Positions 17,565 to 44,214 of a stretch of DNA of 64,000 bases are shown piece after piece. The notes below the pieces were generated by a model. That model was not told where the DNA came from and did no database searches. It saw only the letters and a program-made list of their open reading frames with translations. Made by a program: the position numbers and the translations under genes. The stretch covers positions 1-64,000 of the forward strand of contig JABYQR010000004.1 of NCBI GenBank assembly GCA_022592445.1, in the 5' to 3' direction. Position 1 is the first letter of the stretch; every line of letters begins with the position of its first letter. Origin of the DNA: Cytidiella melzeri (taxonomy: Eukaryota > Basidiomycota > Agaricomycetes > Polyporales > Irpicaceae).

Positions 17565-17693
17565 TCGCTAATAAGTGCAGAACACATTATTTCCTCAAAG
17601 ATTTCTTTGATTTCCATCCAGGCGACAGTACGTCGGCGATACGCCCAATAGGCCTCAACATCCCCACGATCTTGCGATTAGGTCGCCGACAAT

Positions 17694-20600
17694 ATGTCAT
17701 CTACTACCACACCCGCTGTTACCAGCAACGAAGGTTCGGGGACCTACCGTATTGACCCACTAAGGGGAGCCGAGAATTATATTACCTGGCGCATTCAAAT
17801 TACGGATATCTTATCAGACATGGGTCTATTGGGGTACACAGACGGTACGATCACCCGACACGCATCTGATGCCGACAAAATTGCAGAATGGAATAAGAAA
17901 GACCGAAAGGCGCTTACTGCCATCAGACTTCGGATATCAAATGCCATGATGGCTCACGTTCTTAGCGCGACCACTTCCAAGGAAGCCTTCGACGCGCTTG
18001 CAAATATATTCACTACGGAAGGCGCCGTATCTCTTATTGTTCTGCGCCGAAAATTCTTACGCTATTCCATCACGGAAGGTTCCGACCTCGAGGAAGAAAT
18101 CCGGAAGATCAAGGGTCTTTGGCAAGAAATCAATTTGATCCAGAAGACCCCGATTTCGGACCCTGAATTAGCTTCCGTAATCCTCACCGCTTTACCTCAC
18201 AGTTGGGATCCCATGATCTCATCAATTACCCTTGACAATACACAAACCTCCGCCGGTATCATTGCTCGAATCTTACAGGAAGATAATCGCCGCAAGGAGC
18301 GCTCTTCTACCGATACCTCTCTTTATGCCAAGCCCAAGCGCTCGAAATTTCGCTCCGGAGTATTTTGCCATGGATGCAGAAAAGAAGGCCACATTAAGCC
18401 GGAGTGTAGATCGGAGGCGAAGAAGAAAGATGAGAGGGATAGGAAGGATAAGGGCGGAGGGACAAAGGATAGGAAGAGGGAGAAAGGAAAGGGAAAGAGG
18501 GATTACGCTCATGTCGCCGAGGACAGCGACAATGAGCCCGACGAGTACGCCTTCCCAGCCATTGAGAATGCTAACATCGCCACCGAGGGTGTATGGTTAG
18601 CAGATACAGGCACGACATCACACATCGTATCAGACCGATCTCAATTCATCAATTACCGGGAGGCGCCAAGTTCAATTCAAGGCGTCGGTAACTGCCCGAG
18701 TTTAGGCCGCGGCGACGTCAAAGTCATCTTCACCACTAAACATGGCGATTTCCCCATCACTTTGAAGAATGCACTCCATGCCCCTTCCATGAAATTCAAC
18801 CTGATTTCCCTCGGACGACTCACTTCTGAAGGACTCACTTACGAGGGAAGGGAGAAGGTTTTGTTGATCAAAGACGGAAGCAAAATTATTGGACGCGGAA
18901 CAAAGTCCGATAATTTATACCGTATGTCCGTTAAATCCGTGCCTTCGATCGCTTTGATCGCGCAGGACAAGCGCTCCTGGTTTGAATGGCACTGCGCGCT
19001 TGGGCACATCAACAAGCGGCAGCTCGAACAGCTCGTCAAGGACGGCCTCGCCACCGGTATCAACGTCGACACTACATCCGACTCTAACTTCACATGCGAA
19101 ACTTGTATCCAGGCAAAGCATTCGAGGGCCTCATTCCCTCAGAAGACTCTTAGGAAGGTGTCGCAAGTTGGAGAACTAATGTTCTCTGACATCTGGGGAC
19201 CAGCGTCGGTGGAAACTATCGACGGTCACTCCTATATGATCACCTTCACGGATTACTACTCACGTTTTGTCTGGGTCGCCCTCTTGAAAGACAGAGACCA
19301 GGCTCACCTCCGCTTCAAGGAACTCGACGCTTATATCGAAAACCAGGTTGGCCGACGAATCAAATCCATTCGCGTTGACAACGCAAAGGAATACACGCTC
19401 GGAAAGTTCAAATCCTACATTGACTCTCGCGGCATTCAACTCGAACCCACCACACCCTATTCCCCCGAGTATAACGGAATCGCCGAACGTCTCAACCGCG
19501 TGCTCGTGGAACACGCGCGTGCAATGCTCATCGCACACGAACTTCCCAAATTCTTATGGGGAGAGGCTGTCCACTACGCAGCCTACTTGAAGAACCGCTC
19601 GCCCACTCGTGCTCTGCCCGGCCTGACGCCGTTTGAGGCGCTGTGGAAGAAGAAGCCGGACATGAGGGATATACACGAGTTTGGGACTACATGTTTCGTC
19701 AAGGTGAACGTACCATCTTCTAAACTGAACGCAAAGTCTATCAAGCGGAAATTTGTAGGCTTGCGCGAAAGCATTCTAGGCTGGCGGTACTACGTGCCAG
19801 AGACGAGAAAGGTTCTCGTATCGCGCGAAGTCATCTTTCCTTCCAATGACACCCTCCCTGCACCCATCGTCGACTCGACCTCTGGTCTTGAGGGGGAGAA
19901 ATTAACTCACACCACTACGCCGGCACCAACAACACCTACCACAACCAATACAACTGTGCCTACCACGACTACTCAATCCAAGACCGAGATCGAGCCCTCC
20001 TTGGCTGTCACACGCGGACGTCGCAACATCGAACGTGTCGATTATCTCAAAGTCAACGACGGCCCTCAACGTACGCTCAGGTCAATGTCTGCCAAGCCCA
20101 GACATAAAGACATGCATTTGCTTCCGCCTGTATCCGGACTACCGGGACAGGGGGAGATCGACGAATCCTCGATCGACAACTCCAATCTCTGTTTCTCTGC
20201 ACTCGATCTTGACTCACCGCAAACTTTGAAAGACGTTCAAGCTCGCGACGACTGGCCTTCTTGGAAAGAGGCTATGGACAAGGAAATGAACCAACTCAAG
20301 AAGCTGGGCACTTACGACGTCGAAGAACTACCAACCGACCGCAAGGCTGTCGGTTGTCGCTGGGTTTTCGCGATCAAGCGCGACTCGGAAGGAAACATCC
20401 TCAAATATAAAGCACGACTCGTCGCGCAGGGTTTCTCTCAAATCCCTGGGCAGGACTTCTTCGCTACGCACGCTCCTGTTATGCGCCTTGAAACATTTCG
20501 CTTACTCATCGCCATTACAGCTTGCCTTGACCTCGAACTTCATCAAGTCGACGTTGTAGGGGCATATCTCAACTCTCCGCTACAGGAAGCTATCTTTATG

Positions 20601-21758
20601 AAGCAGGCACCTGGCTATGAAGATGGCACTTCACGCGTGTATCATCTCAAGAAGGCGCTATACGGCCTCAAACAAGCAGGACGCGCTTGGCGACAAGAAC
20701 TCGACCGCGTACTACTCGAATCCCTTGGATTCACGCGTTCGCAGGCTGATCCCTGCCTCTACCATCGCATCACGAAGTTTGACCTCGTCCTCATCGGTAC
20801 TCATGTGGACGACTGCCTGATTATCTCCAACGACCTCGACATCATTACTACTCTGAAAGCTGATCTCCGTAAACATTTCGAGATCACCGATCTAGGAGAA
20901 GCCGCGCTTTACGTTGGTATCCAAATCTCTCGCGAACGCCGTTCGCACTCCATCACTCTCAGTCAGGCACACTACATCGACACCATACTATCGCGTTTCG
21001 GCATGGAAACCTGCAATCCCGTCTCAACTCCTCTCGAAGCCAACACCGTCCTTTCACCCGCGACAGAAGACGAAGAACTACTCTCCGACGTCCCATACCA
21101 AGCTCTTATTGGTTCTCTCATGTACGCTTCTGTCGGAACACGACCCGACATCTCATTCGCGGTCCAAACCCTTAGCCAATTCAACACCTCTCACACGACC
21201 ACTCACTGGACGGCAGCGAAACATGTCCTCAGGTACCTCAAGAAGACTCAAGACTATGGTATCACTTATGGCAACGACTCGGACCTCATCATTGCGGGTT
21301 TCAGCGACGCCGACTGGGGTCAAAATCGCGGAGACCGTCGCTCAGTGTCAGGATACGCCTTCCTCATTGGAGGAGGCATTGTTAGCTGGAGCTCGAAGAA
21401 GCAAACTACGGTCGCTCTGTCTACCATGGAGGCCGAGTATGTCGCGTTGGCACACGCAATTAAGGAAGGGATATGGTTAAGGACAGTACTATCCGAGCTA
21501 GGTCTTCTCACTGCAGGACCTACCATCATTGCTACCGACAACCTCGCCGCGATTTCATTCGCTCAAGACCATCAATTTCACTCACGTTCCAAACACATAG
21601 ACATTCGCCACCACTTCGTTCGGGAACGCGTCTTAGACGGAACCATCAAGATACCTCATTGTTCCTCCGAAGAGAACCGCGCCGATATTCTCACCAAGGC
21701 GCTGCCTCGCATCAAACATCAAGAACAACTCGCGCTCATCCACTTGGCAACTCGTTGA
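17694..21758 (+). CDS. Copia-1 gag-pol polyprotein
   Basis: 1354 codons in one frame, no stop or frameshift. Domains in order: copia-type gag (residues ~10-200); zinc knuckle CHGCRKEGHIKPEC coded at about 18366-18407; aspartic protease with DTG at 18603-18611 (WLADTGTTSHI); pre-integrase H-x-H and C-x2-C zinc site (WHCALGHINKRQ..CETC); integrase core with Asp in FSDIWGP, Asp in RVDNAKEY and Glu in YNGIAERLNR; reverse transcriptase with the copia VDD motif at 20805-20813 (THVDDCLI); RNase H with SDADWG, STMEAEYVAL and ATDN. The order PR-IN-RT-RH defines Ty1/copia. All catalytic residues I can check are present. The stop overlaps the polypurine tract. The leader (17565-17693) is short and ATG-free up to the start. 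Confidence 0.95.
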   Translation: MSSTTTPAVTSNEGSGTYRIDPLRGAENYITWRIQITDILSDMGLLGYTDGTITRHASDADKIAEWNKKDRKALTAIRLRISNAMMAHVLSATTSKEAFDALANIFTTEGAVSLIVLRRKFLRYSITEGSDLEEEIRKIKGLWQEINLIQKTPISDPELASVILTALPHSWDPMISSITLDNTQTSAGIIARILQEDNRRKERSSTDTSLYAKPKRSKFRSGVFCHGCRKEGHIKPECRSEAKKKDERDRKDKGGGTKDRKREKGKGKRDYAHVAEDSDNEPDEYAFPAIENANIATEGVWLADTGTTSHIVSDRSQFINYREAPSSIQGVGNCPSLGRGDVKVIFTTKHGDFPITLKNALHAPSMKFNLISLGRLTSEGLTYEGREKVLLIKDGSKIIGRGTKSDNLYRMSVKSVPSIALIAQDKRSWFEWHCALGHINKRQLEQLVKDGLATGINVDTTSDSNFTCETCIQAKHSRASFPQKTLRKVSQVGELMFSDIWGPASVETIDGHSYMITFTDYYSRFVWVALLKDRDQAHLRFKELDAYIENQVGRRIKSIRVDNAKEYTLGKFKSYIDSRGIQLEPTTPYSPEYNGIAERLNRVLVEHARAMLIAHELPKFLWGEAVHYAAYLKNRSPTRALPGLTPFEALWKKKPDMRDIHEFGTTCFVKVNVPSSKLNAKSIKRKFVGLRESILGWRYYVPETRKVLVSREVIFPSNDTLPAPIVDSTSGLEGEKLTHTTTPAPTTPTTTNTTVPTTTTQSKTEIEPSLAVTRGRRNIERVDYLKVNDGPQRTLRSMSAKPRHKDMHLLPPVSGLPGQGEIDESSIDNSNLCFSALDLDSPQTLKDVQARDDWPSWKEAMDKEMNQLKKLGTYDVEELPTDRKAVGCRWVFAIKRDSEGNILKYKARLVAQGFSQIPGQDFFATHAPVMRLETFRLLIAITACLDLELHQVDVVGAYLNSPLQEAIFMKQAPGYEDGTSRVYHLKKALYGLKQAGRAWRQELDRVLLESLGFTRSQADPCLYHRITKFDLVLIGTHVDDCLIISNDLDIITTLKADLRKHFEITDLGEAALYVGIQISRERRSHSITLSQAHYIDTILSRFGMETCNPVSTPLEANTVLSPATEDEELLSDVPYQALIGSLMYASVGTRPDISFAVQTLSQFNTSHTTTHWTAAKHVLRYLKKTQDYGITYGNDSDLIIAGFSDADWGQNRGDRRSVSGYAFLIGGGIVSWSSKKQTTVALSTMEAEYVALAHAIKEGIWLRTVLSELGLLTAGPTIIATDNLAAISFAQDHQFHSRSKHIDIRHHFVRERVLDGTIKIPHCSSEENRADILTKALPRIKHQEQLALIHLATR

Positions 21759-22399: not shown

Positions 22400-22569
22400 T
22401 TTTTTTGAGTGTAATTTTTTTTACTCTTCGATAACACGATAAACGTGTCGGACTGATCACCCGAACACACCAAGAAAAAGAATATATTCCGGAATAGAAG
22501 TACATAGCTACCTATAATCAGAACGCAAGGACCCTGACCCCAGAACGTAACCTGGAGGGCGGGACGGCC

Positions 22570-25500
22570 ATGCATCAGGAGCTCGACGAAGTGAGCCCCC
22601 AGTTGTTGAATTTCGGCTCGGTAACACCAGCCGAAATTGACGCGTCGACGTTAATGCGAGTCGAGGAAACTCGACAGCCTCCTAAGATCAAGACTGCTAG
22701 GCGTAAGGACGACACGTCTGTCGCTACGCTAGCAGCCAGATGGGGAGCAGACGTCAAGGCCACAATGGATACCGGGCCACGCAGATCGAGTCGAACACGA
22801 CAGGCTGCATCAATGGTGGTACCAGCGGAACAGGCACCTGCTCAAAAGAGCGCGAAGAGCGTTTCAGGCCAGGATAAGGTGGTTAGCACCACGGCTGGAA
22901 CGCAGAGGCATATAAATAACGTACCAGAAGATCAATCACCAACTCAGATTGATGTTCCGGGATCTGGGAGTTCCTGGGAAATCACTAGCACAATGATATC
23001 AGACATAACATCGCTCCCATCCACGGCACCATCAACGGAAATGATGAGAACTCACCTATGTTCTGCATCAACGTCGTCCAGTGATAATGAGGGCGATGAG
23101 GATGACCGTGATGTGGAAGGGATCCTGGGAACGGACATGGAACCTGGGACAGGAAAGGTCAAAACGGAAGAGGACGGTGATAAGGAATGGATATTACCTC
23201 GAAAACCAGGATGGTCCCGAATGATACCCGGTGGTGCAGCACCAACGGAGAGTACATACGGAATACCAGCGACAACAAACTGGTTCGAGCTATTGTCGGT
23301 TTCTGATCAGTTGGGACCTTTACCGAGTGAATGGTTCAGAAAGAACATACCTCGAGTAATAAGAATACCTGAGCAGACGTCCGTTGGGAACGGATGGAGG
23401 GATGTCGAAATGCAACCGCACGAACGACTAGAACAATTTGCTCCCGTGTACAATGATCACGACGAGGATCAGGCGACTATCATAGCCATGAAAAGGTCGT
23501 TGAAGGACTCACCACATGAGCATAATAGAGAAAGAAGGGCAAATTCGAATCTGCATGCCATGGCGACTATCGTCGAGGTGGAGGAATCGAGAGCGACCAA
23601 TAGTAAGGGAGCAACGGAGCCTCCAGTGTCCAGGGAGAAGGGGAAAGAGGCGGAACGAGGTCCGCTTTATGACCCAAACCTCCTGAACCCAAGCAGTGAA
23701 AGTAAGAACGTTCGAAAGAAAAAGAAGGAACGTAGCACACCAGCTCGGGAATTCCTGCAAAGGGAAGCAAGTTGTGAGCCGGAGGGTATTCACACCACAC
23801 GGAAGGAAAATTCGTCAAGGAACGCGCGACGAAGCAAATCCGTCAGGTTCCAGAGGGAAACCTCTCAAATACCGGAGGGCGGGTACTTCAATCAGGCGCG
23901 AGAAGGTCATGGTGGGGGAAGGATCCCACCCGATCCTCCTGGACCACCAAACGACAGTGACGACGAATCATTGTCGTCGTCATCCTCGTCGGCAACCTCG
24001 AGATCGGATTCGTCCACTGAGAGTGAGAGGAGCGAGGAAAGCCGAGACGAAACTGCACGGAAAAAGCGAAAGAAAGATCAGAAAAAGATCAAGAAAGTAA
24101 TGAATGGGGTAAAACTTAAGAATCCGGTGCCATGGGACGGAAGGAGTGACCTCGATGCGTTTGATGAGTTCACCTATGAGTACGATACATGGGTCGAACT
24201 TAACGCGCTGCCCGAGCGACTGGCCTTGAAAGTTATTGTTAACTTTTTGAATGGAAAGGCGCGGAAGTTTTTTATGACTCACGTAGCGACACGACAGCAC
24301 AAATGGACGGTTCCTCTTTTATACGAGGCGCTGTTTGACTACTGTTTCCCTGAGGATTTTAAACTTCGGCTCCGTGAACGGTTAATGAAGTCCACGCAAG
24401 GAATACATACCGTAAGGGACTTTCTTCGAGATATTGAGAAACTGGCGACCCGGTTCTCAGATGTCACAGATTGACAACTCGTTCAGATATTCTGGAAGGG
24501 GATCAGAATGGAGCTGAGACTACACTTAATTGAGAAAGGAAAGGACCCGGAAACAACTCCCCTGGAGAACCTTGTGAAGCACGTGTCTCGAAAAGAGAAG
24601 GCGTTAGCAGCTAAACGGCTGGAAGAACGAGATTTCACGGGGAAGGTACCGGGAAGACAGTGGGGATGATTTGAGAATCGCACATTGGGTCCTAAAACTG
24701 TCGATAAGTCGTCAGCTAGACAAGGGGCTAAGAAAGGATCGAGGAGTGAAACGCAACATACCTTTCAACCCCGGCCCGATTGTTTCGAACGTGCGAAGCC
24801 GAAAGGCAAAGACACTCCTAAAATTCTGACAAAAGAAGAACGGGAAAAGTGTCGCGCAGAAGGACGTTGTTTCAGTTGCAAGGAATTGGGGCATGAATTG
24901 CAAAATTGCCCTGACTGGAAACATGCGAAGGCACCTCGCATGTCAAGCTCGTCTATACGTTTTGAAAAACTCGATCGTCTTGCGGAAACTATACAGAAAA
25001 ATGATGTCAATGTATCAGCGGTTCGCGTAGACTTCAATAACGGAACTCACGCACCTATGCATGAGTGGAGAAGGGCACATCGCGATGACACAAAGCGATA
25101 TATCAAGGCCCTTTTCGACAGCTATGCAGACTCCAGGCGAGAACAAGGGGAATCAAGTCCTGAGGAAAGATTCGAAGTCAGCGATGTAGATGATGAATCG
25201 TTTGAAGTTATTGACTGGGCAACGAATGGGGCGGAATCATACCGAGTCACGTACGATGATCTCGAAGAACCCGACCTATCAGTCCAAGACATAATCATTA
25301 AGAATACCCCACACCCGAATACGCCTACAGACGACAATGCTTACCCGTTTTACACCGACGAGTCAGACGGTGATCACCCAGCCACGGAATGGTTAAGGGT
25401 ACGGATGACAACGGAACTATGGAACAGAGGGGAATTTGATGATGTGGATCGACCGGTGGAAGTCGAAACCCACCCAGAAGGGTACCTGGTATGGATCAAG

Positions 25501-28500
25501 GGACACATCAGATCCATACTAATCAAGCATAGTGACATCAAACGTACCTTTAATCCGGGAGACGTGATTGATCGACACCGGGACGAAGCTGCACGAATCC
25601 GGCGAAATAGCTGGAGGGCGCGTACGCGGCAGGATCTGATACTTGGAGCCGTTAACAAAGGACAGAAGAAAAATACTATGAGTAGCTTACCTGTATTAGA
25701 ACGGAACGCAATGCGCACCAAAGACTTCAGTAGACGACTACTGAAGCCGGTAATAATCACTGTTCGAGTCAATGGAAAACCTATCAAAGCATTGTTAGAC
25801 ACGGGCTCTATGGCGGACTTTGTGTCAACTACAATAGTTGATCAGCTAATGTTGCCCAAGGACGTACTAGCAAAACCTTTACCGGTACAACTGGCCGTCC
25901 ATGGGTCGAGATCTAAAATAAACTTTAGCACCATGGTGCAATTACAGTACCAAGACATCGACTGCAAACGACGATTTGATGTAGTAAATCTCGACAATTA
26001 TGATGCAATACTCGGCACACCTTTCATATTTCAGCACAAGATAGCAATTGCGCTTAATCCAACGAGGATCGCGGTTGGATCGGCCATACCGTTACCGCTT
26101 GAAGGCGAAGAAATCACGACCATTGAGTCGTCAGCAGCGGAGATCCTACAAGACGAACTGGATAAAATACGTCGCATGTTGACTGCTAAGGCAGAGGACC
26201 TATGTCAGGTTGCAGCAAGGGCGGAGCTGCCACCACTACGAGCTATCAATCATAGTATACCGTTGATAGACGAAAATAAGGTCTATAAATGGAGACCATC
26301 TAAATGCCCTGAAGCGTTAAAACCGCTTTGGAGAGAAAAGAAACAAGCATACCTAGACAGCGGAAGATGGAGGATTGCGTCAGGGACCAATGTGTTGCCG
26401 ATGCTGATGATCCCTAAACCCGCTAGAGAAGATGGTAAACTAAGATTGAGAACTGTGTTCGACAAAAGACAGCAAAATGCGAATACTCACAAACTGGCAG
26501 CTCCTTTGCCGGATATTGACGGGATATTGCGTAACGTTGTCCGACACCGATATCGAAGCATAATAGATGGGAAAGACGCGTATGAGCAAATCAGGGTCAT
26601 ACCTGAGCACGTATCGCGCATCATATTCAATACACCCGATGGGACGATGGAAAGCCTGGTATTGCAGCAGGGAGACTGTAACGGTCCAGCCACATACCAG
26701 ACGGTGATGAATCACGTATTCGCTCCGTACATCGGGGTATTCATGGATGTATACCTAGACGATATTGTGATATATTCAGACACAGTTAGCGATCACGTCG
26801 AACACATACGGAAAGTGTTTGACGTACTTCGAAGAGAGAAATTCTTTTTGGGGGCAGACAAGATGCATTTTTTCGAGGCAAGATTGAAGATACTAGGGCA
26901 CATCATAAACGAGAAAGGCATCGTAATGGATTCTCATAAAGTGGATTCAGTGGTTAACTGGAAAGTACCAACGAACAAAAGCTTACTGAGTAGTTTCCTC
27001 GGCACAGTAGGGTTCCTAGCACCTGATTGTGAAGGGATACGAATTCCGATGGGAGTACTAGCACCAATCACAGGAGCTACGAAACCTTGGGAATGGAGAG
27101 ATACTCATCAGCGGGCGTTCGAGCAAGTTAAAGAAACGGTACATAAATGGCGCAACCATCATCGAGTAGCCATTGATTATTCACAGGACGCCGAGACAAT
27201 CAATCTGGTCACGGACGCGTCACTCACAGGAGCTAGTGGATACATTAGCCAAGGAAATGATATTCATAAAGCACGGGTTACCAACTTCTGGTCAGGAAAG
27301 TTTGACTCGGCACAACAGAACTACCCCGTACATGAACAGGAGTTGTTGGCGATTGTTGAGTCCCTGAAGCGATTCCGACCTTTGCTTCATGGAGCTCGCT
27401 TTCGAATATGCACTGATCACAAGGCATTGGAGCATTTGATGAACCAGAAAAATCTATCGCCGAGACAACATCGATGGTTAGACATATTAAACGAGTTTGA
27501 TTATCAAATCCTGTACATACCGGGGGAAACAAATGTACTTGCGGAGGCACTATCTCGGATATATAGTGATGAACCTAGAGGAATTGAGCAAGCAAGCAGC
27601 GAGTACGTTGGGGACGACGGAAGAGAACAATACACTCTTACATCCGTTAATTCGATGGAGGTCCTTAGGCCAGTATACACGGGGGCGACCGCGGTGATTG
27701 ACTTTGAACCAAGGAGGTCAGCCAGGCTCACCGATAAGGTGAAACCGCCAGGAACGTACGAGCGAATGGATAAGGGAATTGACCCGGCTGAGACCGTGAG
27801 CCACGAACCTAAACCAAAACGAGTACGGTCTAAACGATCTAAGAAATTAGTATCAGAGGCAATATCAGAGCCAAACATGACACAAACAGACTCACCGGAG
27901 GTGTCAACTCCTATGGAACACCGCGAGTGGCAGAACAGCGAGTCGGAATCAAATCCGCAGACGTCGGAAGCAGTAAATGCGGAGATAGATAATGAAGCGC
28001 GCCACGTACCCACTAGTCTCATTGTTGCAGCAGAACTAGGTATGCCTATGCCGGATAGCTTGCGCAATAGATATGCGGAAGATATTTTCTTCGTCAATAT
28101 CATGAAGAAGCCTCAGCAGTATAAAGAATTTGAGGAGGAAGATGGATTACTGTACCTAAAGCGCGATGGTCATAGGGTACTATGCATTCCAGACATCCAA
28201 GTCGGAAATAGACGGCTGAGGGAGATCTTGATTCGCCATGCCCATTCGATACTAGCGCACCTCGGGCGATATAAAACCCTTACGTATTTAAGGGAAGAGG
28301 TGTGGTGGAAGACAATGGTAGACGATGTTAGGGAATATTGCAAGACCTGTGGGGTGTGCGCGACGAGTAAGCCGGTGAATACGCAGCCCGCAGGCTTACT
28401 CAAGACGATGCCGGTACCAAGGCGTCCTTGGCAATACATAGCCCTCGACTTTGTCGGTCCATTGCCACAATGTACGCACCGACTGGGCGATTTTGATATG

Positions 28501-29373
28501 ATATGCGTAATAATTGATCAGCTCACGTCAATGGTACACTTGGTACCAACGCAGCAAACTCACGGAGCAAGACAAATCGCAGAAGTCATATTTGAAAATG
28601 TGTATAAGCTACATGGATTACCTGAGCGAATTATAAGCGATAGGGACAGTCTGTTCACCAGCATATTCTGGAAAGCGCTACACTCACTATTGGGAACTGA
28701 ATTGCGGTTATCCTCGGCATACCATCCTCAGACGGATGGAGCGACGGAACGCGCGAATCGAACAATGACGCAGATGTTGCGGCAGTGCGTGAGTCCAGAT
28801 CAGAAAGATTGGGTGCTAAAGCTACCTGCTATCGAGTTAGCGATGAATACGGCACGATCTGAGCTAACCGGATTTTCTCCGTTTTACCTAAACTATGGAC
28901 AATTACCACGTACGTTGGTATGGGATACCCAGTCTGACTATCCAGGGGTGTCGAGCTTCGCACAGAACATGAAAGAAGCGATAATGGCCGCTCATGATGC
29001 TATCATTGCCTCTCGAGTTCTACAGACAACTCAGGCAAATAAGCACAGACGACCCGCGACATTTAAAGAAAAAGATTTGGTATACCTATCAATAAAGAAC
29101 CTGCGAATACCGAAAGGACGTGCAAGGAAGCTGGCTCCAAAATATATTGGTCCGTTTCCTATCGAGAAGGAATTGGAGCCGGGGGCCACTTATCGACTTG
29201 AGTTATCATCGGAATTAAAAGCGCGAGGCATACACGATGCGTTCCATGCATCACTGTTGCGCCCACACATACCGAACGATGATCGTCGATTCCCGGGTAG
29301 GCAGTTTCACCAACTGCCGGGATTTGGTGTACAACCTCAGGAATGGAGCGTAGATCGCATTATTTCGCAGTAG
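22570..29373 (+). pseudogene. Gypsy gag-pol with two in-frame TGA codons
   Basis: A single frame from ATG 22570 to TAG at 29371, broken by TGA at 24472-24474 and 24667-24669. Between and after them the sequence continues in the same frame as typical gag (QIFWKG.., then CCHC knuckle CFSCKELGHELQNC). The 3' part has no ATG at its start; the first codon after the second TGA region that could be called a start is TTG, so the stops are lesions. Downstream: protease DTG at 25798-25806, reverse transcriptase YLDD near 26752-26763, RNase H (VTDASLTG..ATDHKALEHL-type blocks), integrase HHCC site, and core Asp 28447, Asp 28639, Glu 28747 (D,D35E). It ends in EWSVDRIISQ, the start of a chromodomain. Both stops could come from CGA to TGA changes. 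The element cannot make an intact polyprotein. Confidence 0.9.
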
Positions 29374-29500
29374 GAAAGGGTGAATCAGCTGAATTCGAAG
29401 TGCAATGGTCGACAGGGGACGTTACCTGGGCACCATATCACGATGTAAAGCACTTGCAGGCATTGATGAGTATTGCGAGGCGCTAGGTATAAAGGGAATC
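29341..29500 (+). pseudogene. Frameshifted chromodomain at the gypsy integrase C-terminus
   Basis: EWSVDRIIS is in the pol frame. The next block, GESAEFEVQW then GDVTWAPYHDVKHLQAL, is in a second frame starting about 29376. IDEYCEALGIKG is in a third. Put side by side they give the normal chromodomain-like tail of fungal gypsy integrases, which directs integration to marked chromatin. Two indels therefore break it. Confidence 0.7.
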
Positions 29501-29794
29501 AGCCATTTACCACCAAAACCGGAACGAAATGAAATAGACGCACCAGAAATCACAGTAGGCACAGTAACGGCACGACTTACGAGCACAAAGAACATAGCTC
29601 ATGGTGAACGTCGCAAGACCCTAACGAGTGGCGGGAAACAAGGTCAGAGTACGGAGGGACATACCGAGTGGCAACGACGAAAGGCGTATAAAAATTCGTC
29701 GAGTCGAGCATACTCTACTCAACTGATCTTCTACAACTGTCAGTTAACACACAAACTAGACTGTTCGCACTCACACAATCCTGTTCACATCGAC

Positions 29795-30702
29795 ATGCAT
29801 CGCGTTCTCACGGATTACACCGCTGCAGACGGACTCAAATGGGAGCGATACGCAGACCACACTCGCGCTTTTCATGCTGGCAAGGCTCCTCATCCGGGAC
29901 CGCCGCCTGAAGGATATGTTGACGTCTATAAAGGACTGAAACAAAAGTACGCACCGCTTCCAGAGGACGTTCCGTCTCTCTGCTATCCTCGTGCTACGAT
30001 ACCTCCGCCGGCAGTCCAGATGTCGGAGACAGCGTATCACGCCATGATCGACGCGAATACTCGTTTGTCGGACAATTATATGGCGATGGCACGAGAAATT
30101 AAGGAGTTAGCCGTGATGAATATGGGACCCAACTCTCGTAAACCGACTCACCCACACGATGTACACCAAATCGGGAAGGGCAGAGGCGGTAGGATGGAAC
30201 CATATCACCAAGGTAATTTTCGTAAGGAAATGGGAACAAGGTTTCAGAAACCGAGTAACCATTCCTTTCGGAACAGCGGCTTTGCCAACCATGGGGGACA
30301 CCGTAGCCACGGTGTTCCTCGGGATAGTGTTGGCAAGGGCACTCTCGCCGCTCGCCTCGATAACCCAACGATTAGCAAAGGGCATGACGATCAGCAGCTG
30401 AGTAGGGTGGCTAAACGTCGAAGCCAGCGCCGTCGTAAGGAAAAATCTATGGCAGATAAAGTTAAAGGCGGTGAGAAAATAATCCCAGCTATTGAGAAGG
30501 TACTTACCGACGTACTGCAGGAGATACCAAAGCCTGTGAAACAGACAACGTCGAAGGACATACCCAAGAACCTGACCCAATCGTCATCGATGAAGCGGAA
30601 CCCCTTTATGAAGAAAAATCAGTTTCTTTCGGATCTGACTTCTTCGCAGATGAAAATGGGAGACCGTTATTTGGAGACGATGAGATGGCGGGATGAGGTA
30701 AG
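29795..30702 (+). CDS. Gypsy 3' ORF of unknown function with its own TATA box
   Basis: Open frame after pol and before the 3' LTR. The frame is open from 29405 to 30880 but its first third overlaps the broken chromodomain. I prefer the ATG at 29795 because TATAAAAA lies at 29687-29694, ~105 bp upstream. The product begins MHRVLTDYTAADGLKWERYA, has HAGKAPHPGPPPEGY, and ends in a long basic region with SRVAKRRSQRRRKEK. No catalytic domain is recognised. At 30696 the frame runs into GATGAG then GTAAGTG, a perfect splice donor, so the real 3' end may lie beyond or within the LTR. Its own promoter and donor suggest a separate transcription unit, such as an accessory gene or captured host gene. Its role is unknown. 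Confidence 0.45.
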
Positions 30703-30729
30703 TGTTGCATGCAACACTTGGAGGGCGAA

Positions 30730-31213
30730 TGTAACGGGTGACCGCCCATCCTCAGCGTCTCAGACCAAACAGGGAAGGTTCCCACGCCACAAAGAGTGGC
30801 CGCAGCATAAACGACTGGGCTGCAAAGTAACGCAGTCCGAAGTTAAGGAGAAGCCTCGTCATCGCAGTACGCAGCAATGATCGGCTCAACTCCTCGTCAC
30901 TGTGCCGACTTAGCACAGCAATAATTACACTCCACTCTCGTATTTTCATAACGCAGTATTGTAAGGTTTCGTCATCCGTAGTACATTAATAATTCTCGTG
31001 ACTAATAGACTACGGAATCCTTCATGTATAAATACCTTAGTACACTCTGGGGAAAAGACCCAAGAATCTCATATCGGAAGACTTACACCACTCACACCAC
31101 TCGTCCATTAACGAATCTTCGACTCTTTATTCAACTTCGTGTTTTACGAACATATCGACGCCCACAAAGCTTAATCAGCAATCCGGACGCCGAACCTTCG
31201 TTTTCACGCTACA
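30730..31213 (+). repeat. Gypsy 3' LTR
   Basis: Uninterrupted LTR, 484 bp, TG..CA. It is the empty-site reference for the Copia-1 insertion in the 5' LTR. Preceded by the purine-rich GGAGGGCGAA. Confidence 0.9.
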
Positions 31214-32402: not shown

Positions 32403-32546
32403 GGTTATGAGCCCTGGACGCTAATAAGTGCAAAACACATTATTTTCTCAAAGATCTCTTTGATTTCCATCCAGGCGACAGTACGTCGGCGATACGCCCA
32501 ATAGGCCTCAACATCTCCACAATCTTGCAATTAGGTCACCGACAGT

Positions 32547-35500
32547 ATGTCATCAACTACCACACCCGCTGTTACTAGCAACGAAGGTTCGGGGACCTAC
32601 TGTATCGACCCACTGCGGGGAGCCGAGAATTATATCACTTGGCGCATTCAGATTACGGATATCTTATCAGACATGGGTTTATGGGGGTATACAGACGGTA
32701 CGATCACTCGACATGCATCTGATGCCGACAAAATCGCAGAATGGAATAAGAAAGACCAAAAGGCGCTTATCGCCATCAGACTTTGGATATCAAATGCCAT
32801 GATGGCTCACGTTCTTAGCGCGACCACTTCCAAGGAAGCTTTTGACACGCTTGCAAATATATTCACTACGGAAGGCGCCGTATCTCTTATTGTTCTGCGC
32901 CGGAAATTCTTACGCTACACCATCACGGAAGGTTCCAACCTCAAGGAAGAAATCCGGAAGATCAAGGGTCTTTGGCAAGAAATCAATCTGATCCAGAAAA
33001 CCCCAATTTCGGACCCTGAATTAGCTTCCGTGATCCTCACTGCTTTACCTCAGAGTTGGGATCCCATGATCTCATCAATTACCCTCGACAATACACAAAC
33101 CTCCGCCGGTATCATCGCTCGAATCTTACAGGAAGATAATCGCCGCAAGGAGCGCTCTTCTACCGATACCTCCCTCTACGCCAAGCCCAAGCGCTCTAAA
33201 TTTCGCTCCGGAGTATTCTGCCATGGATGCGGGAAAGAAGGCCATATCAAGCCGGAGTGTAGGTCGGAAGCGAAAAAGAGAGATGAAAAGGAAAGGAAGG
33301 ATAAGGGCGGAGGGACAAAGGATAGGAAGAGGGAGAAAGGAAAGGGGAAGAGGGATTACGCTCATGTCGCTGAGGACAGCGACAAGAGCCCGACGAGTAC
33401 GCCTTCCCGGCCATTGAGAATGCTAACATCGCCACCGAGGGTGTATGGTTAGCAGATACAGGCACGACATCACACATCGTATCAGACAGATCTCAATTCA
33501 TTAATTACCAGGAGGCACCAAGCTCAATTCAAGGCGTTGGTAACTGCCCGAGCTTAGGCCGCGGCAACGTCAAGGTTATCTTCACTACCAAACACGGCGA
33601 ATTCCCCATCACCCTGAAGAATGCACTCCACGCCCACTCCATGAAATTTAACTTAATTTCGCTGGGACGACTTACTTCCGAAGGGCTCACTTACGAGGGA
33701 AGGGGGAAGGATCTGTTGATCAAGGATGGGAGCAAAGTCATTGGAAGCGGAACAAAATCCGACAACTTATATCGTATGTCTGTTAAATCCATTCCTTCGA
33801 TCGCTTTGATCGCGCAGGTCAAGCGCTCCTGGTTTGAATGGCATTGTGCGCTTGGTCACGTTAACAAGCGCCAGCTCGAACAACTCGTCAAGGATGGCCT
33901 CGCCACTGGTATCAACGTCGACGCCAAATCCGACCTCAACTTCACATGCGAGACCTGCATCCAGGCGAAGCACTCGAGGGCCTCATTCCCTCAGAAGACT
34001 CTTAGGAAGGTCTCACGAGTCAGAGAACTCGTATTCTCAGATTTTTGGGGGCCAGCGTCGGTGGAAACAATTGACGGTCACATCTATATGATCACGTTCA
34101 CCGATTGTTACTCACAATTTGTTTGGGTTGCGCTTCTGAAGGAAAGGAACCAGGCATACCTCCGCTTCAAGGAACTTGACGCGTATATCGAGAATCAAGT
34201 TGGCCAACGAATAAAAGCCATTTGCATCGACAATGCAAAAGAGTACACACTTGGAAAATTCAAGACTTATATCGACTCCCGTGGCATTCAACTCAAACCC
34301 ACCACTCCCTATTCCCCTGAGTACAACGGAATCGCCGAACGACTCAACCGTGTTCTTGTTGAACACGCACGTGCAATGCTCATTGCACATGAGCTTCCCA
34401 AGTTCCTATAGGGGAAGCAGTCCATTACGCTGCTTACTTGAAGAACCACTCTCCAACTCGTGCCCTGCCCGGCCTGACACCGTTTGAGGCGCTGTGGAAG
34501 AAGAAGCCGGACATGGGTCACATACACGAGTTTGGGACTGTGTGTTTTGTCAAGGTGAATGTGTCGTCTTCTAAACTCAACGCCAAATCTATCAAACGGA
34601 AATTTGTAGGGTTGCGCGAAAGTATTATAGGGTGGCGATACTACGTGCCGGAAACGAGAAAGGTGCTCGTCTCGCACGAAGTCATCTTTCCATCAAACGA
34701 CACCCTCACCGCGCCCATCATCGACTCGACGTCTGGTCTTGAGGGGGAGAACATCTCTACTATGGCTCCGACGACACCTATCACTACTATGAAGGCACCT
34801 ACCACGACTACTCAATCCAAGACCAACATTGAGCCTCCTCTGGCTGTCACACGTGGTCGCTGCAACATTGAACACGTTGATTACCTCAAAGTCAACGACG
34901 GACCTCAACGCACACTCAGGTCAATGTCTGCCAAGCCCAGACATAAGGACGCGCTTTTGCTTCCGCCTGTATCCAAACTACCGGGACAGGGGGAGATCGA
35001 CAAACCCTCGATCGACAATTCTAATCTCTGCTTCTCCGCATTCAATCCTGACACACCACAGACTCTCAAAGACGTCCAAGCTCGCAACGACTGGCCTCTT
35101 TGGAAAGAAGCTATGGACAAAGAAATGGACCAACTCAAGAAGCTTGGCACTTACGATGTCGAAGAGTTACCAACTGACCGCAAGGCTGTCAGTTGTCGCT
35201 GGGTTTTCGCGATCAAGCGTGACTCCGAAGGAAAAATCCTCAAGTACAAAGCGCGACTCGTCGCGCAGGGTTTCTCCCAAATCCCTGGGCAGGACTTCTT
35301 TGCTACGCACGCTCCTGTTATGCGTCTCGAAACTTTTCGCCTACTCATTGCCATTACAGCTTGCCTTGACCTCGAACTTCATCAAGTCGATGTCGTAGGG
35401 GCATACCTTAACTCGCCTCTACAGGAAGCTATCTTCATGAAGCAGGCGCCTGGCTATGAAGACGGTACTCCACGAGTCTACCATCTCAAGAAGGCGCTAT

Positions 35501-36597
35501 ACGGCCTCAAGCAAGCAGGACGCGCTTGGCAACAAGAACTTGATTGCGTACTACTTGAATTCCTCGGATTCACTCGTTCGCAGGCCGATTCCTGCCTTTA
35601 CCACCGCATAACGAAATCCGACCTCGCTCTCATCGGTACTCACGTGGACGACTGCTTAATTGTCTCTAACGACCTTAACGCCATCACAACGCTGAAATCC
35701 GACCTACGTAAACACTTCGACATTACCAATTTAGGCGAAGCAGTTCTCTATGTTGGCATCCAAATTCTCCGCCAATGCCATTCGCATTCCATTACTCTCA
35801 GTCAGTCACACTACATCGACACTATACTATTGCGCTTTGGCATGGACACCTGCAATCCCGTCTCGACTCCGCTCGAAGCCAATACCATCCTCTCACCTGC
35901 AGCGGAAGACGAAGAACTACTCACTGATGTCCCGTACCAAGCTCTTATCGGTTCACTTATGTACGCATCAGTCGGAACTCGACCAGATATCTCATTCGCG
36001 GTCCAAACTCTTAGTCAGTTCAACACCTCCCACACGACCACTCATTGGACGGCAGCGAAACATGTTCTCCGGTACCTCAAGAAAACTCAAACTTATGGTA
36101 TCACGTATGGGAACGATTCCGAACTCATCATTACAGGTTTCAGCGATGCCGACTGGGGCCAAAATTGCGGAGATTGTCGCTCAGTATCTGGTTACGCTTT
36201 CCTCATCGGAGGAGGCATTGTCAGTTGGAGTTCGAAGAAGCAAACTACGGTTGCGCTGTCGACCATGGAGGCCGAATACGTCGCGTTGGCTCACGCGATA
36301 AAGGAGGGAGTTTGGTTGAGGACATTGCTGTCCGAATTAGGTTTCCTCACCGCTGGACCCACCATCATCGCTACCGACAACCTCGCCGCGATTTCATTTG
36401 CCCAAGACCATCAATTTCATTCACGCTCTAAACACATCAACATTCGCCATCACTTCGTCCAAGAACGCGTCTTAGACGGAACCATCAAGATACCTCATTG
36501 TTCCTCCGAGGAGAACCGCGCCGATATCCTCACCAAGGCACTGCCTCGCATCAAGCACCAAGAACAACTCGCGCTCATTCACTTGGCAACTCGTTGA
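32547..36597 (+). pseudogene. Copia-2 gag-pol, two single-base deletions and a nonsense codon
   Basis: Aligned against Copia-1: gag and the zinc knuckle CHGCGKEGHIKPEC are intact in frame from 32547. One base is lost near 33385 (GACAATGAG became GACAAGAG), shifting the frame to the 33641-34411 piece. At 34409 TGG became TAG and a second base is lost, moving to the 34438-36597 frame (RT-RNase H), which runs intact to the stop. Many Arg codons of Copia-1 are Cys, Gln, His or Trp here, for example RRSH against QCHSH and NRGDRRS against NCGDCRS. The element cannot encode its own polyprotein. Confidence 0.95.
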
Positions 36598-38033: not shown

Positions 38034-38036
38034 CTA

Positions 38037-38086
38037 CTGCCGTTTGCACAATGATATGGAATGCGAGTTTTTTTTTTCGGCCCCAC
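38037..38086 (+). repeat. Left terminal inverted repeat
   Basis: 50 bp, CTGCCG..CCCCAC with T10; reverse complement of 41239-41287. Confidence 0.95.
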
Positions 38087-38214
38087 TTCCAGCGCTTCAA
38101 ACTTCCCGGACATGGTCCAAGGTCTCCAGATGACATCATTGTTACACGTTACGGGCAGTGCCTGTCCCCAGCACGCCGCGGCTGTGCGCAACTCACCCTA
38201 CAACCATACCACTA

Positions 38215-39345
38215 ATGGGACGCACACACAAAGCTCTCAGGTGTTCACACGACCTCAAGGCCCGCATCCCAGTTCTCTTCTATGAACAAGGCTACACAGT
38301 TAAGAAGATTGGACACATCCTTGGTGTGAGCAAGTCGCTTGTATGCAACTCTCTGAACAGCTATGGCTGCTTTGGTGTCGCCCATAATCCCTTCGCTCGT
38401 CAGTGTGGGCATAGGCGTCTAATGACGCAGGAAGACATCAACTACTTACGCAGTCTACTCTCTCACCGGCACTCATATTATCTTGATGAGCTTCAACTCA
38501 AACTACTTGAGCATCGTGGGCTTGACATCTCCATTGCCACAGTCTGTCGTACACTCCGTCGTCTGAGGATTTCCAGAAAGAGAGTATGGAAGAAAGCAGC
38601 AGGTGAGCGTGCATGTGTCATGTTCTACTACTTTATAGCAACTGACGTTATGCAGAACGCAATGATCTGCTTCGCGCAGCCTACTGGAACCACTTCGCAA
38701 CATTGGTACCTGATCCAAACATGCTTATGTTTACGGGTGAGTCTCACAAAGATCAGCGCACACATGATCGGTTGTATGGCTATTCCGAGATTGGAGTTCC
38801 CTGTGTTCAGCGTGCAACATTTGTACGCGGACAGCGTATTAGTATTCTGCCATTGCTGAGTCTTGATGGCATTATAACATATGATCTCATTGAGGGCTCA
38901 GTGACAGCAGCTCGCTTTGCTCGCTTTATCCGTGACCAAGTGGTATGTTCAAACTATTTTTGCAAATTTACAGTATCAGAAACATTGATTATTTATAGAT
39001 TTCCCTCACCACTCCCTATCCTGGCCCTCGAAGTGTACTTGTGCTGGATAATTGTAACATTCACCACTCAGACGAGCTACAAAGGTTGATAGTAGATGCT
39101 GGTAGGTGTTTATTGAGCTAAAAGATGCATATTCTGAACTTGACAATGTTCACATAGACTGCCGCATTCTATATCTTCCACCTTACTCCCCGGACTTCAA
39201 CCCTATCGAGTATGCCTTTTCCTCTGTCAAGGCGTACTTACGTTGCCACTGGCAAGAACGCAATCTTATGAGTATAGTCTATGCACTTTGGAACATTACT
39301 TCAGAGATGTCTGAACAATGGTTCCAAGATGCTGGTTATATGTAG
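38215..39345 (+). CDS. DD34E transposase, first catalytic Asp replaced by Gly
   Basis: Four exons: 38215-38602, 38656-38942, 38999-39101, 39158-39345. They join to 321 codons with intact frame. The N-terminus has a helix-turn-helix (GYTVKKIGHILGVSKSLVCN, residues ~26-45) for end binding. The C-terminal DDE endonuclease has Asp242 in VLVLDNCNIHH and Glu277 in LPPYSPDFNPIE, 34 residues apart as in Tc1/IS630 enzymes. The first Asp should lie in the MLMF-T-D-E-S-H-K-D block but the codon at 38736-38738 is GGT, giving FTGESHKD. Without this metal ligand the protein should not cut DNA. Start chosen at MGRTHK; an in-frame ATG at 38158 would add 19 low-complexity residues. Length is normal for the family. 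Confidence 0.85.
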
Positions 39346-39411
39346 TACGGGTAGCCTATATACAGTATATTATTCCAAGAACTAAGCAGAAATAGCGAAG
39401 TTTGGCGGGAA

Positions 39412-41121
39412 TCAATACACCGAAGCAAAGTCATTAATCCCAGAGTATCCATCTCTGCCAGTGCAATCTGGTGCAGTGAAGCCAAGAGGAATGGGCTTCC
39501 ACTCAAGTGTAGCGGAGTCCTGATACTCTATGAAGTCATCATCAAACTGTCTATCTCCGACAATGAGTGGAACTTCAAACCACGACATTCTCGTGCCATC
39601 AGGCCAACAACCCTTGTAGTGAATACACTTATCTGGCCCATCTCCCAATTGACCTCTTTCGTCTTGCTCAAGAAAAGGATTGAAGTCTACATCCTCCTCA
39701 AAGAGTTCACGAGGCCGCTTTCCCCGACTGTTCCACCACACCGGCGCTGCATTGCGGAAACGTATCGCATCGCCAGGAGTTCGCCCGACATCGAATGCTG
39801 TGAGGTCCTTGATGTCAACCTGATCAAGGATGTCTGGGCCATAACCCTTTGCACTCAGCGATGTACGATAGGTGTGCGCGTTGACAACACCGTGGGTATC
39901 CTTCATGAACTTGAGGAATCGTGGGAGGTCGTTTGGACTCCGAGGAATCAGAACTGACATGTTCGTGGAAGGAAGCGTACCAATCGATGCTGTTTGCGCA
40001 TGCTTCGGGGTACGCAGAGCAGCGGGTACACATGCCCTCTTGGTCAACTCCAAGATAGCAGCTGAGAGCTGTGCGAGAGTAGTACCTTGGTCCAGCGAAG
40101 GCACAGATACAACAGAGGCTGCATGGCGAGCAGCACGGCGGGCATCGAGAACCGGTCGCCGATTGTCGGGGTCAAAAATCTCGGTGTACGGTGGTTCGGA
40201 CAGCGTAGCTACGTTGTCCTTCTGCATATCATTCAAGGTATGAAATGTGTGCTATCGTGAAAGGTGATCCAGCTTACCAAGGCGATAGACCACTCCTTGA
40301 GCATGATTGGGCTCAATTTGAGCTGGTACCCGCTGTCGTAGGTAAACGTGAATCCCCCGTCGCGCTCGTTGGAGTACTTCTTCTCAAGCAGAACGCGGTA
40401 TCCAGCAAGCGCAGACTCGAGCGCATCCATATCCCCCACTCGAATGCGCTGTAAACAGGGACATGTCAGCAAGTGTAGTAGAATCAATATGTGCGGAACT
40501 CACACTATTGGGCCGCTCGTTGTCACTCTCGTCCGCCTTGTCTCCATCTACGCTCTCGCTGTCGGAGGACTGAGCCGCGAGCACAGTTTATTATGATAAC
40601 AACACGTGACAATAAATTGAGTGCGTACCATGTTGGTGTTGGACCGATGGCGCACGGTCTTCTTGATGTCCTCGAACTGGGCGTATATGGTCACCTTCAA
40701 CGTCCCGTTCCGATCGAGTTGCACGATCATATCCATATACTCCTCGAGGGTCTCGACATCCAGCGCGTCCTTTTTCCTGTCAGCAGACATCAGTCAATAT
40801 ACATCCAAGCAGGAATAGCCTCACGCACGCAGCTCTTGCAGGAAGGTACTTGAACGAATAAGGATTTGATGCCTTGACCTTATACAAAGGTTCTCTGTGT
40901 CAATCGAGGATAGTCTGTAAAAGTCGGACGTAGCTGTCCTTGTCGTTGTCGAGTGTGAGAGTAAACAGCTTGTTCTTGCTTTCCTTTTTGTCGAGCTTGC
41001 GGTTCTTCTTTCCAGTCTGTGCCGCGCTCGCCTTGTGAACAACACGTGTAAGTTCAGCCGACAGCTCAAGGACAACCGTGACCTTGTCAACTTCTGCGGG
41101 TGGTTCATTGCAGTCGGACAT
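39412..41121 (-). pseudogene. Transposon partner gene: PB1-like + SAM-like protein, one in-frame TGA
   Basis: Five minus-strand exons: 40829-41121, 40629-40776, 40504-40569, 40278-40448, 39412-40221. They give 496 codons including stop, all junctions with GT..AG and consistent phase. Codon 74 (40900-40902) is TGA, after LLQTILD and before HREPLYKVK, and could be a CGA to TGA change. Residues ~50-135 (KLFTLTLDNDKDSYVRLLQ .. YSFKYLP .. KKDALDVETLEEYMDMI .. LKVTIYA) look like a PB1/ubiquitin-like beta-grasp. An acidic linker follows, then a basic/aromatic segment (VLLEKKYSNERDGGFTFTY). Residues ~323-386 (NDLPRFLKFMKDTHGV .. GYGPDILDQVD .. TPGDAIRFRNA) are SAM-like. The last ~80 residues are Trp/Asp-rich. 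No catalytic motif. Both domain types mediate protein assembly, so a structural or targeting partner of the transposase is my inference. Confidence 0.75.
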
Positions 41122-41238
41122 CGGGTCGAGAGTGAGAGTGGACGAGAGCCGGGTACAGGGCGTTGAGAGGCAAAAATTCGAGCACTGGTTCTACTTACTG
41201 GACATCCCGGGCACCTCTGCGTCACTCGCGCGCCTGAG

Positions 41239-41287
41239 GTGGGGCCGAAAAAAAAACTCGCATTCCATATCATTGTGCAAACGGCAG
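41239..41287 (-). repeat. Right terminal inverted repeat
   Basis: 49 bp, GTGGGG..CGGCAG with A9; reverse complement of 38037-38086 with one fewer base in the homopolymer. Followed by TA. Confidence 0.95.
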
Positions 41288-41343
41288 TAATTGCATAAGG
41301 GCTTTTAGCAGAGTATCTGCAGCAAGAACTGAAAGATGCATAC

Positions 41344-42590: not shown

Positions 42591-44214
42591 CTAGAGCATA
42601 AAGGTCAAAGGGTTCTCCAAATAACCCTTGAACGCCGTCAGCCACCTGGCGCCTACTGCACCGTCAACCACACGGTGATCAGAGCTGAGAGTAACCTTCA
42701 TGATGTTGGTGACCTTGAAGCCCTTCTCCTCCTCAGGAGCAGGCACCAGAGTAGGCTGCGTTGAACCGACGGCCAAAATACATGCTTGAGGTGGGTTGAT
42801 GATGGCAGTGAAGTGCGAAATACCGAACATGCCTAGGTTGGAGATGGTGAAAGTACCGCCCTTCATTACCGACTGTCAGCAGGCGGAAAAAGAGACGAAG
42901 TCAAGAAAACCGACCTGGTACTCCTGCGGCTGTAGCTTGCCGTCACGAGCCTTCTTCGCGAGAGCTTTTGATGTTGCAGAGATGGTCGCCAATCCCTTGG
43001 ATCCAACGTCCTTGATAATAGGAGTTATAAGACCAGTTGGGGTCGCAACAGCGATGGAAATATCAGCATTTTTATACCTGTATACCAATTAAAGATTGCG
43101 GCATAGCATGAAAAAACATGAAAATATACGTACTGCCTGATAACTTCGCCCAGCCACGCGGAATTGGCCTCAGGGACATCGCCCAGTGCACGTGCGGTCG
43201 CCTTCACAATGAAATCATTGACACTGAGCTTCGCACTCTTATCCTTGTCTCCCAGAGCCTTGTTGAAAACCTCGCGTAACTTGAGAACCTTGTCCATATT
43301 GATGTCAGCGGTGAGGTAGTAATGCGGGACGTCTTGCTTTGACTGCTGAAGACGGGAGCCAATCACACGGCGCATGTTGCTGACAGGAGTGTCGATGTAG
43401 TCGGGTGAAGGAGCGGCAGGGGTAGGGAATCCTGCGGTAGGACCCGAGGCAGCGGCAGCAGAGGGCTGATATTTTTCGACGTCCTCGCGGAGGATACGAC
43501 CTTCGGGACCTGAGCCCTTCACCTTTGACAAAGGAATTCCACGCTCCAGAGCAATCTTCTTGGCAATGGGAGAAGCGAAGATGCGATCACCTTTGGGAAG
43601 GTCTCCCTTCGTTTCAGAGGGAGGGGCTGAGGGCTCAGACTTTTCTTGTTCAGGCTCCTCGGTCTTGGGAGGTTCTGGTGCCTTCTCCTCAGAGGAAGGC
43701 TTAGACTTCTCCGAGCTAGCCTCTACAGCAAGTTTATCAGCACCGGAGATATCGTCGCCCTCTTCGCCAAGGATAGCAATGGGAGCACCAACTTGCACGT
43801 TTTTGGTGCCGTCGGGTGCCTGTGCGCAGGTTAGTGACGCACAGGGGAATTTGAACCTATACATACAATAATCTTCGCGAGAATGCCATCTTCCTGTGCT
43901 TCAACATCAATCGTAGCCTTGTCAGTTTCCTAAGGAATGACGATTTAGATGAGAGTCGCGCGTCACAAGCAAACAACATACGATCTCGAGCAGCACATCG
44001 CCAGTAGCAAAGGGTTCGCCCTCCTTCTTCTTCCACTGAGCAATACCGCCCTCCGACATGGTAGGGCTCATAGCCGGCATGGTGAACTTTGTAAGGGCGT
44101 GTCTCCTTGCGGAGACATGAAAGCCTATAACAAATCGCTCAGTGGTGTCTCGATCGGTGCGACAGCTATGTGCATACCTCTGGCGAAGACCGTGCGGGCG
44201 AGTGTTGAAGCCAT
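42591..44214 (-). CDS. LAT1: Dihydrolipoyllysine acetyltransferase, E2 of mitochondrial pyruvate dehydrogenase
   Basis: Transfers the acetyl group from lipoate to CoA in the mitochondrial pyruvate dehydrogenase complex. Six exons: 44178-44214, 43982-44124, 43867-43929, 43134-43819, 42915-43077, 42591-42860; 453 codons, normal for fungi. N-terminal presequence [13 protein letters not shown]. Lipoyl domain with the attachment lysine at residue 64 ([10 protein letters not shown]). Ala/Pro/Glu-rich linker. E3-binding domain ~160-200 ([23 protein letters not shown]). Catalytic domain with His426 and Asp430 in DHRVVDGA. The last acceptor was chosen as GAAG then GGCGGT because it restores [13 protein letters not shown]; the alternative CTGACAG would add four residues. 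Ends ENPLTFML. Convergent with nothing; the host gene fragment starts 270 bp downstream. Confidence 0.95.

Follow-up and report, generated by a model that had tools for sequence, protein, structure and literature searches.

Does the second gene found inside a Tc1/mariner-type element of the fungus Cytidiella melzeri belong to the element, and what could its product do there? Tc1/mariner is the textbook transposon that needs no protein but its transposase, an autonomy often cited as the reason for its spread between kingdoms and its use as a source of genetic tools. The element considered here lies in the window, that is, the whole stretch of 64,000 nucleotides analyzed (contig C334), and is a decayed copy from a lineage of the IS630/Tc1/mariner superfamily that genuinely comprises two genes. 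In the genome of C. melzeri (49.7 Mb), from which all evidence on co-occurrence was drawn, the second gene, below called the partner, belongs regularly to the element and has been passed down together with the transposase in six subfamilies, with the same convergent layout kept. Possession of a transposase gene only is typical of the superfamily, though not strictly defining, and these six subfamilies depart from it.

Structure of the window element

The element occupies positions 38037-41287 and has TA on both sides. Its features are:

38035..38036, no strand: TA target-site copy, left (sequence at the left boundary)
38037..38083, plus strand: left terminal inverted repeat (TIR), 49 nt with TA (common to C76, C45, C179, and short derivatives)
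38215..39345, plus strand: transposase gene, 4 exons, 321 aa, DD34E arrangement with the first Asp changed to Gly
39346..39411, no strand: gap of 66 bp between the convergent stop codons (from both gene models)
39412..41121, minus strand: partner gene, 5 exons, 495 aa, TGA at codon 74; homologues known
41241..41287, minus strand: right terminal inverted repeat (from the comparison of inverted ends)
41288..41289, no strand: TA target-site copy, right (sequence at the right boundary)

The two arms (38035-38083 and 41241-41289, 49 nt with the TA counted in) are 94% complementary, which bears out the repeats of about 50 bp and the TA duplication described in an earlier note on this DNA; the exon models likewise agree with its two convergent spliced genes whose stop codons are 66 bp apart. 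TA is also found at both ends of three other copies (C76, C45, and C179) and of several short derivatives.

The transposase (exons 38215-38602, 38656-38942, 38999-39101, and 39158-39345; product of 321 aa) matches the Pfam family DDE_3 (PF13358) with E=3.9e-26 and 92.1 bits against a cut-off of 28.6, whereas the score of HTH_23, 23.8 bits, is just under its cut-off of 24.6. Residues D242 and E277 give a D2-E spacing of 34. Thus the assignment to the DD34E transposases stands as to family and spacing, but the first catalytic Asp is replaced by Gly157 in the window copy (codon 38736-38738), where C45, C76, and C179 have GAT.

The partner gene is encoded on the minus strand by exons 41121-40829, 40776-40629, 40569-40504, 40448-40278, and 40221-39412. 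The frame is continuous across all five, in accordance with the product of 495 residues and the in-phase exons claimed earlier, and the SAM-like region of the protein is encoded by the last exon. Codon 74 is TGA (40902-40900) in the window copy and also a stop in C716, and is a sense codon in C76, C45, and C179. The public gene models of two C. melzeri proteins of this family (P0001 and P0002) start with residues encoded by the TIR and have a junction that bypasses part of exon 1, so that the likely N-terminus of the partner is hidden in database annotation.

Both genes are located between matching TIRs in the window copy, C76, C45, and C179. Among these four and C716, no copy has both genes open, and the window copy is dead in both. 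The transposase of C76 has a deletion of 23 bp and its partner one stop; in C45, the transposase is interrupted by a 425-bp insertion and an 8-bp insertion shifts the frame of the partner. In C179 both genes are frameshifted and the partner contains an insertion of about 1.8 kb; C716 is without the transposase half of the element and has stops. The short derivatives of about 440 bp consist of about 290 bp of the left end and about 145 bp of the right end. Both ends are present in C301, C264, C342, and C631, and C729, C248, and C190 match the same parts. The existence of such copies, reduced to the TIR regions, implies that the genes are not required in cis. The 425-bp insertion of C45, situated in exon 2 of the transposase, has inverted ends and a TTA duplication and probably represents a non-autonomous element from a different superfamily.

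In the four pairs of copies compared, the differences are mainly transitions, many of them in CpG. For instance, the window copy and C76 differ by 101 transitions (74 in CpG) and 27 transversions, as expected for methylated or mutated repeats. Synonymous divergence among C334, C76, C45, and C179 (with C716 added for the partner only) is 0.03-0.21 in the partner half of the element versus 0.009-0.042 in the transposase half; the CpG content may account for the higher values, and the transposase half may have undergone conversion.

Co-occurrence of the two genes

The search of the genome with the transposase gave 76 matches at E<=1e-5, which were merged into 38 stretches. They fall into the window's family and five further subfamilies, named B to F from DNA homology between loci; the main matches in the five subfamilies other than the window's are 35-43% identical. 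A partner relative is present within 13 kb of 23 of the 38 stretches, and the two genes are convergent in all 23. Very divergent partners would escape detection, and these counts are lower bounds.

The association is closest for the long stretches. Among those of at least 800 bp, 18 of 21 have the partner, always convergent and 41-152 bp away (19 of 21 if DNA homology is counted, as C20 shares partner-encoding DNA with C204). The two others, C180 and C552, lack the 3' end of the transposase, and no partner was found beside them. Among stretches shorter than 800 bp, the partner accompanies 5 of 17; the remaining 12 include five copies of the MITE type, the rest being partial. With their DDE_3 matches added, two of the latter come to about 830-850 bp and have no detected partner. 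One, of about 850 bp (C44:444-1296), runs towards a contig end. The other, of about 830 bp (C412:139376-140204), is a decayed transposase relative and an unexplained exception.

The reverse count gave 26 merged partner loci, 22 of them near a transposase relative (13 kb). No partner gene in the genome proved to be both complete and free-standing, the other four loci being a half element with stops (C716) and fragments (C112, C190, and C437). The C112 fragment corresponds to partner exon 1 (47% identity over 77 residues) and adjoins DNA that shares 84% identity, along 49 nt, with the right subterminal part of the window element. The earlier note regarded ends that usually lack the partner, or a partner found mostly as a free-standing host gene, as marks of a passenger; in this genome, the partner is neither usually absent from elements with a related transposase nor present as a complete free-standing gene.

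By contrast, no partner lies within 13 kb of 68 of the 90 merged DDE_3 loci, and one of the remaining 22 has a non-convergent neighbor 8.5 kb off. By hand count, 39 of the 68 partnerless loci are matches of at least 429 bp outside the relatives of the window transposase. A second numerous DDE_3 group (C708, C564, C557, C434, and others) contains several uninterrupted frames of about 341 aa and has no detected partner.

A complete element of another subfamily (B) is located at C117:38243-41856. It is 3614 bp long and has 62-bp TIRs (98%), TA ends, and both genes.

Homology and co-divergence of the partners

A single-sequence search with the window partner did not reach the partners of the other subfamilies, and profiles were compared instead: A4 (the window partner with its Lactarius and Panaeolus homologues), A5 (four partners of other subfamilies), and A6 (partners of subfamily B). 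A4 matches A5 with a probability of 94 and E of 1.3e-7, and A5 matches A6 with a probability of 99.5 and E of 4.4e-22. The direct match of A4 to A6 is weak (probability 18, over the corresponding middle region), so the homology of these two groups is transitive; in the control comparison of A4 with transposases, the probability was 0.8. As judged from these profiles, the partners of the subfamilies are homologous.

The partners also diverged in parallel with the transposases. Pairwise identities of the two proteins co-vary with r of 0.947 in eight elements (29 of 40320 permutations as high) and of 0.835 in six subfamily representatives (16 of 720 permutations as high).

Outside C. melzeri, the window partner has homologues in Lactarius hatsudake (34% identity, covering 96% of the query), in L. 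deliciosus, and in Panaeolus papilionaceus. None of the transposase matches listed (120 of 336) lies on a contig equal in length to that of a Lactarius or Panaeolus partner homologue. A tree of 47 of these 120 database transposases and 14 from this genome (C236 and C44 were dropped) was used for grouping only. The window transposase groups with C180 and 30 database sequences, and the other subfamilies of this genome form a separate supported clade together with P0039 and P0068; C180 and C435 are members of the tree with no partner found beside them. If the two clades did not exchange partners, the partner predates their split. Finally, the partner profiles A2 and A5 found no relative in viral_contigs, where the transposase profile A3 found seven loci of 29-49% identity.

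Selection on the partner

The partner of subfamily B is under purifying selection at the protein level. For the three pairs formed by C140, C117, and C101 (323-357 codons), dN/dS is 0.12, 0.13, and 0.23, ratios that are rough given dS of 0.9-1.4; in the last 95 codons, which encode the SAM-like end, it is 0.05-0.12. Exon 1 of the transposase in the same elements has dN/dS of 0.09-0.11 (218 codons). With CpG excluded, the N/S ratio of the partner is 0.31-0.47 of the neutral expectation, and in all three pairs none of 500 simulations was as low.

Selection on the partner in the window's own family is only suggested. The raw dN/dS between its copies is 0.30-0.76 for the partner (10 pairs) and 0.99-2.24 for the transposase (6 pairs). 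The retest without CpG covered 7 of the 10 partner pairs and 4 of the 6 transposase pairs: three partner pairs, all including C179, are below neutral and the other four are not, and none of the four transposase pairs is, in line with their raw ratios of about one or more. The low raw ratio of the partner may be partly a CpG effect. The dN/dS comparison proposed in the earlier note revealed purifying selection on the subfamily B partner; in the window family, with CpG excluded, three of seven partner pairs and no transposase pair fell below neutral. Its argument that the intron structure shows selection is not accepted, because the window copy has a nonsense codon.

Domains of the partner

Neither the window partner nor any of five further partner proteins or fragments has a Pfam family scoring above the cut-off, the two weak sub-cut-off listings being NigD_N (E 0.18) and NT_N (E 0.005). 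This agrees with the reported lack of an enzyme motif, as no catalytic family is among those above the cut-off. A SAM match was not listed by Pfam at E<=10, a range in which HMMER filters drop most weak matches, and a PDB sequence search with the partner gave no match.

Structure prediction points to a SAM-like fold at residues ~300-377 of the Lactarius homologue, with likeness to SARM1, Tric1, and Ste50; RAD51-type HhH domains score close behind. This likeness in fold to SAM proteins is not accompanied by any Pfam or PDB sequence match. On the basis of the predicted fold, the SAM-like domain postulated earlier is moderately supported. The whole low-confidence partner model retrieved nothing at E<=0.001 in Foldseek, and the Cas9 rows that make up most of that list were disregarded. 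In the N-terminal PB1 candidate, strands and a helix follow one another roughly as the fold would require, at a pLDDT of about 26-48 and with no Pfam PB1 match.

The partner groups have in common the predicted SAM-like end and a middle module that ends in a Trp plus Pro-Pro motif. In all seven partners of profiles A5 and A6, the middle module contains C-x2-H ... C ... H. This C-H-C-H motif occurs in five subfamilies and is absent from the window partner, P0004 (L. hatsudake), and P0006 (P. papilionaceus); it is possibly zinc-binding.

Possible role of the partner

The regular presence of the partner, its constant orientation, and the selection on it indicate that it serves the element, and we are highly confident that this lineage has a selected second component. 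Given a fold that is often self-associating or DNA-binding and no enzyme family above the cut-off, a non-catalytic cofactor is the most likely product. Our best explanation, which we regard as fairly probable, is that the window holds a decayed copy of a two-gene lineage whose partner acts, as a non-enzymatic cofactor, in transposition of the element itself. In such a role, the SAM-like C-terminal domain would provide self-association or DNA binding, the middle module (which in five subfamilies has the possibly zinc-binding C-H-C-H motif) would bind either DNA or a partner, and the two would jointly aid assembly or targeting of the transposase-end complex. This particular mechanism is offered tentatively, at rather less than even chances. 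The two-component system proposed in the earlier note thus holds as regards a regular second gene, selected in subfamily B; among the functions suggested there, a polymerising cofactor is the most likely and anti-silencing is a serious rival, as is self-regulation.

According to that rival, the partner is selected to act against host defence (silencing, RNAi, or CpG-directed mutation) and not in the transposition reaction. The prevalence of inter-copy transitions, many in CpG, is consistent with a defence based on methylation or mutation, and the partner's lack of a catalytic family above the cut-off also fits this reading, but Pfam listed no domain of a known anti-silencing factor, and we consider this unlikely. 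To the same low degree, the partner could regulate the element that encodes it, as a repressor or by copy-number control, through binding to the ends or to the transposase. Binding of DNA or protein would be in keeping with a SAM-like or HhH-like domain and with the C-H-C-H motif, and the end segments conserved in short derivatives (about 290 bp left and 145 bp right) might be bound by it; a pure repressor is expected to be lost more often, whereas long stretches with a 3' end mostly keep the partner, which is a weak argument.

Transposons commonly capture host sequence, and the partner might be a host gene accidentally captured in the window's element. Such a passenger is very improbable and is rejected for this genome, given convergent co-occurrence in six subfamilies (23 of 23 in the same orientation), co-divergence with the transposase, and purifying selection. 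Moreover, the 4 of 26 partner loci that have no transposase relative inside 13 kb consist of fragments and one half element with stops. That two separate transposons are nested in or abut each other has a negligible chance and is likewise rejected for this genome: copies with nested insertions exist (C45 and C179), but a single TIR pair encloses both genes in four copies and again in C117, and the ends listed for the window copy include no inner pair.

The cofactor reading can be extended beyond this element, with a likelihood just short of even: a large old branch of IS630/Tc1/mariner in mushroom-forming fungi would be obligately two-component, and its partner would represent a new cofactor family, combining SAM-like oligomerisation with the C-H-C-H motif, that predates the split of the window group from the other subfamilies of this genome and is probably widespread in Agaricomycetes.

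Relation to known systems

A second protein is known in other cut-and-paste transposons, namely maize MuDR (mudrA and mudrB), PIF/Harbinger (transposase and a Myb-like protein), and CACTA. The two genes of MuDR are convergent too, and all three belong to other superfamilies.

Closer to the window element is TIR_1 of Pleurotus ostreatus, likewise a Tc1-mariner element with a DDE_3 transposase, which is listed as 1.6 kb long and described as encoding a transposase (PMC4905642). The elements considered here are 3.25-3.6 kb long and have the second convergent gene. The ciliate TBE/Tec elements resemble them in combining a DD34E transposase with further ORFs, and are described as unlike typical Tc1/mariner (PMC7325037). 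They differ in having three ORFs, in the site-specific recombinase of Tec, and in belonging to ciliates, not fungi. In the open full-text literature searched (Repbase and most subscription journals lie outside it), we found no description of such a partner for fungal Tc1/mariner.

These observations suggest that the partner is a previously unrecognised helper protein for the movement or protection of the element. A selected second protein kept through deep divergence leads to testable roles in end assembly, target choice, escape from silencing, or self-control. In addition, a family of Agaricomycete proteins listed as "hypothetical" obtains a name, and at least three of its members in C. melzeri (P0001-P0003) are transposon genes.

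Other features of the window

Two closely similar copia-type retrotransposon polyproteins are present at 17682-21758 and 32535-36597, as judged by eye from the translations; one is a single open frame of 1358 aa and the other is split into three overlapping pieces. Between them, at 22498-30880, is a gypsy-type retrotransposon with gag-, RT-, and integrase-like regions, also recognized by eye. On the other side of the two-gene element, the minus-strand ORF at 43025-43900 presumably resembles the E2 (dihydrolipoyl acetyltransferase) subunit of pyruvate dehydrogenase.
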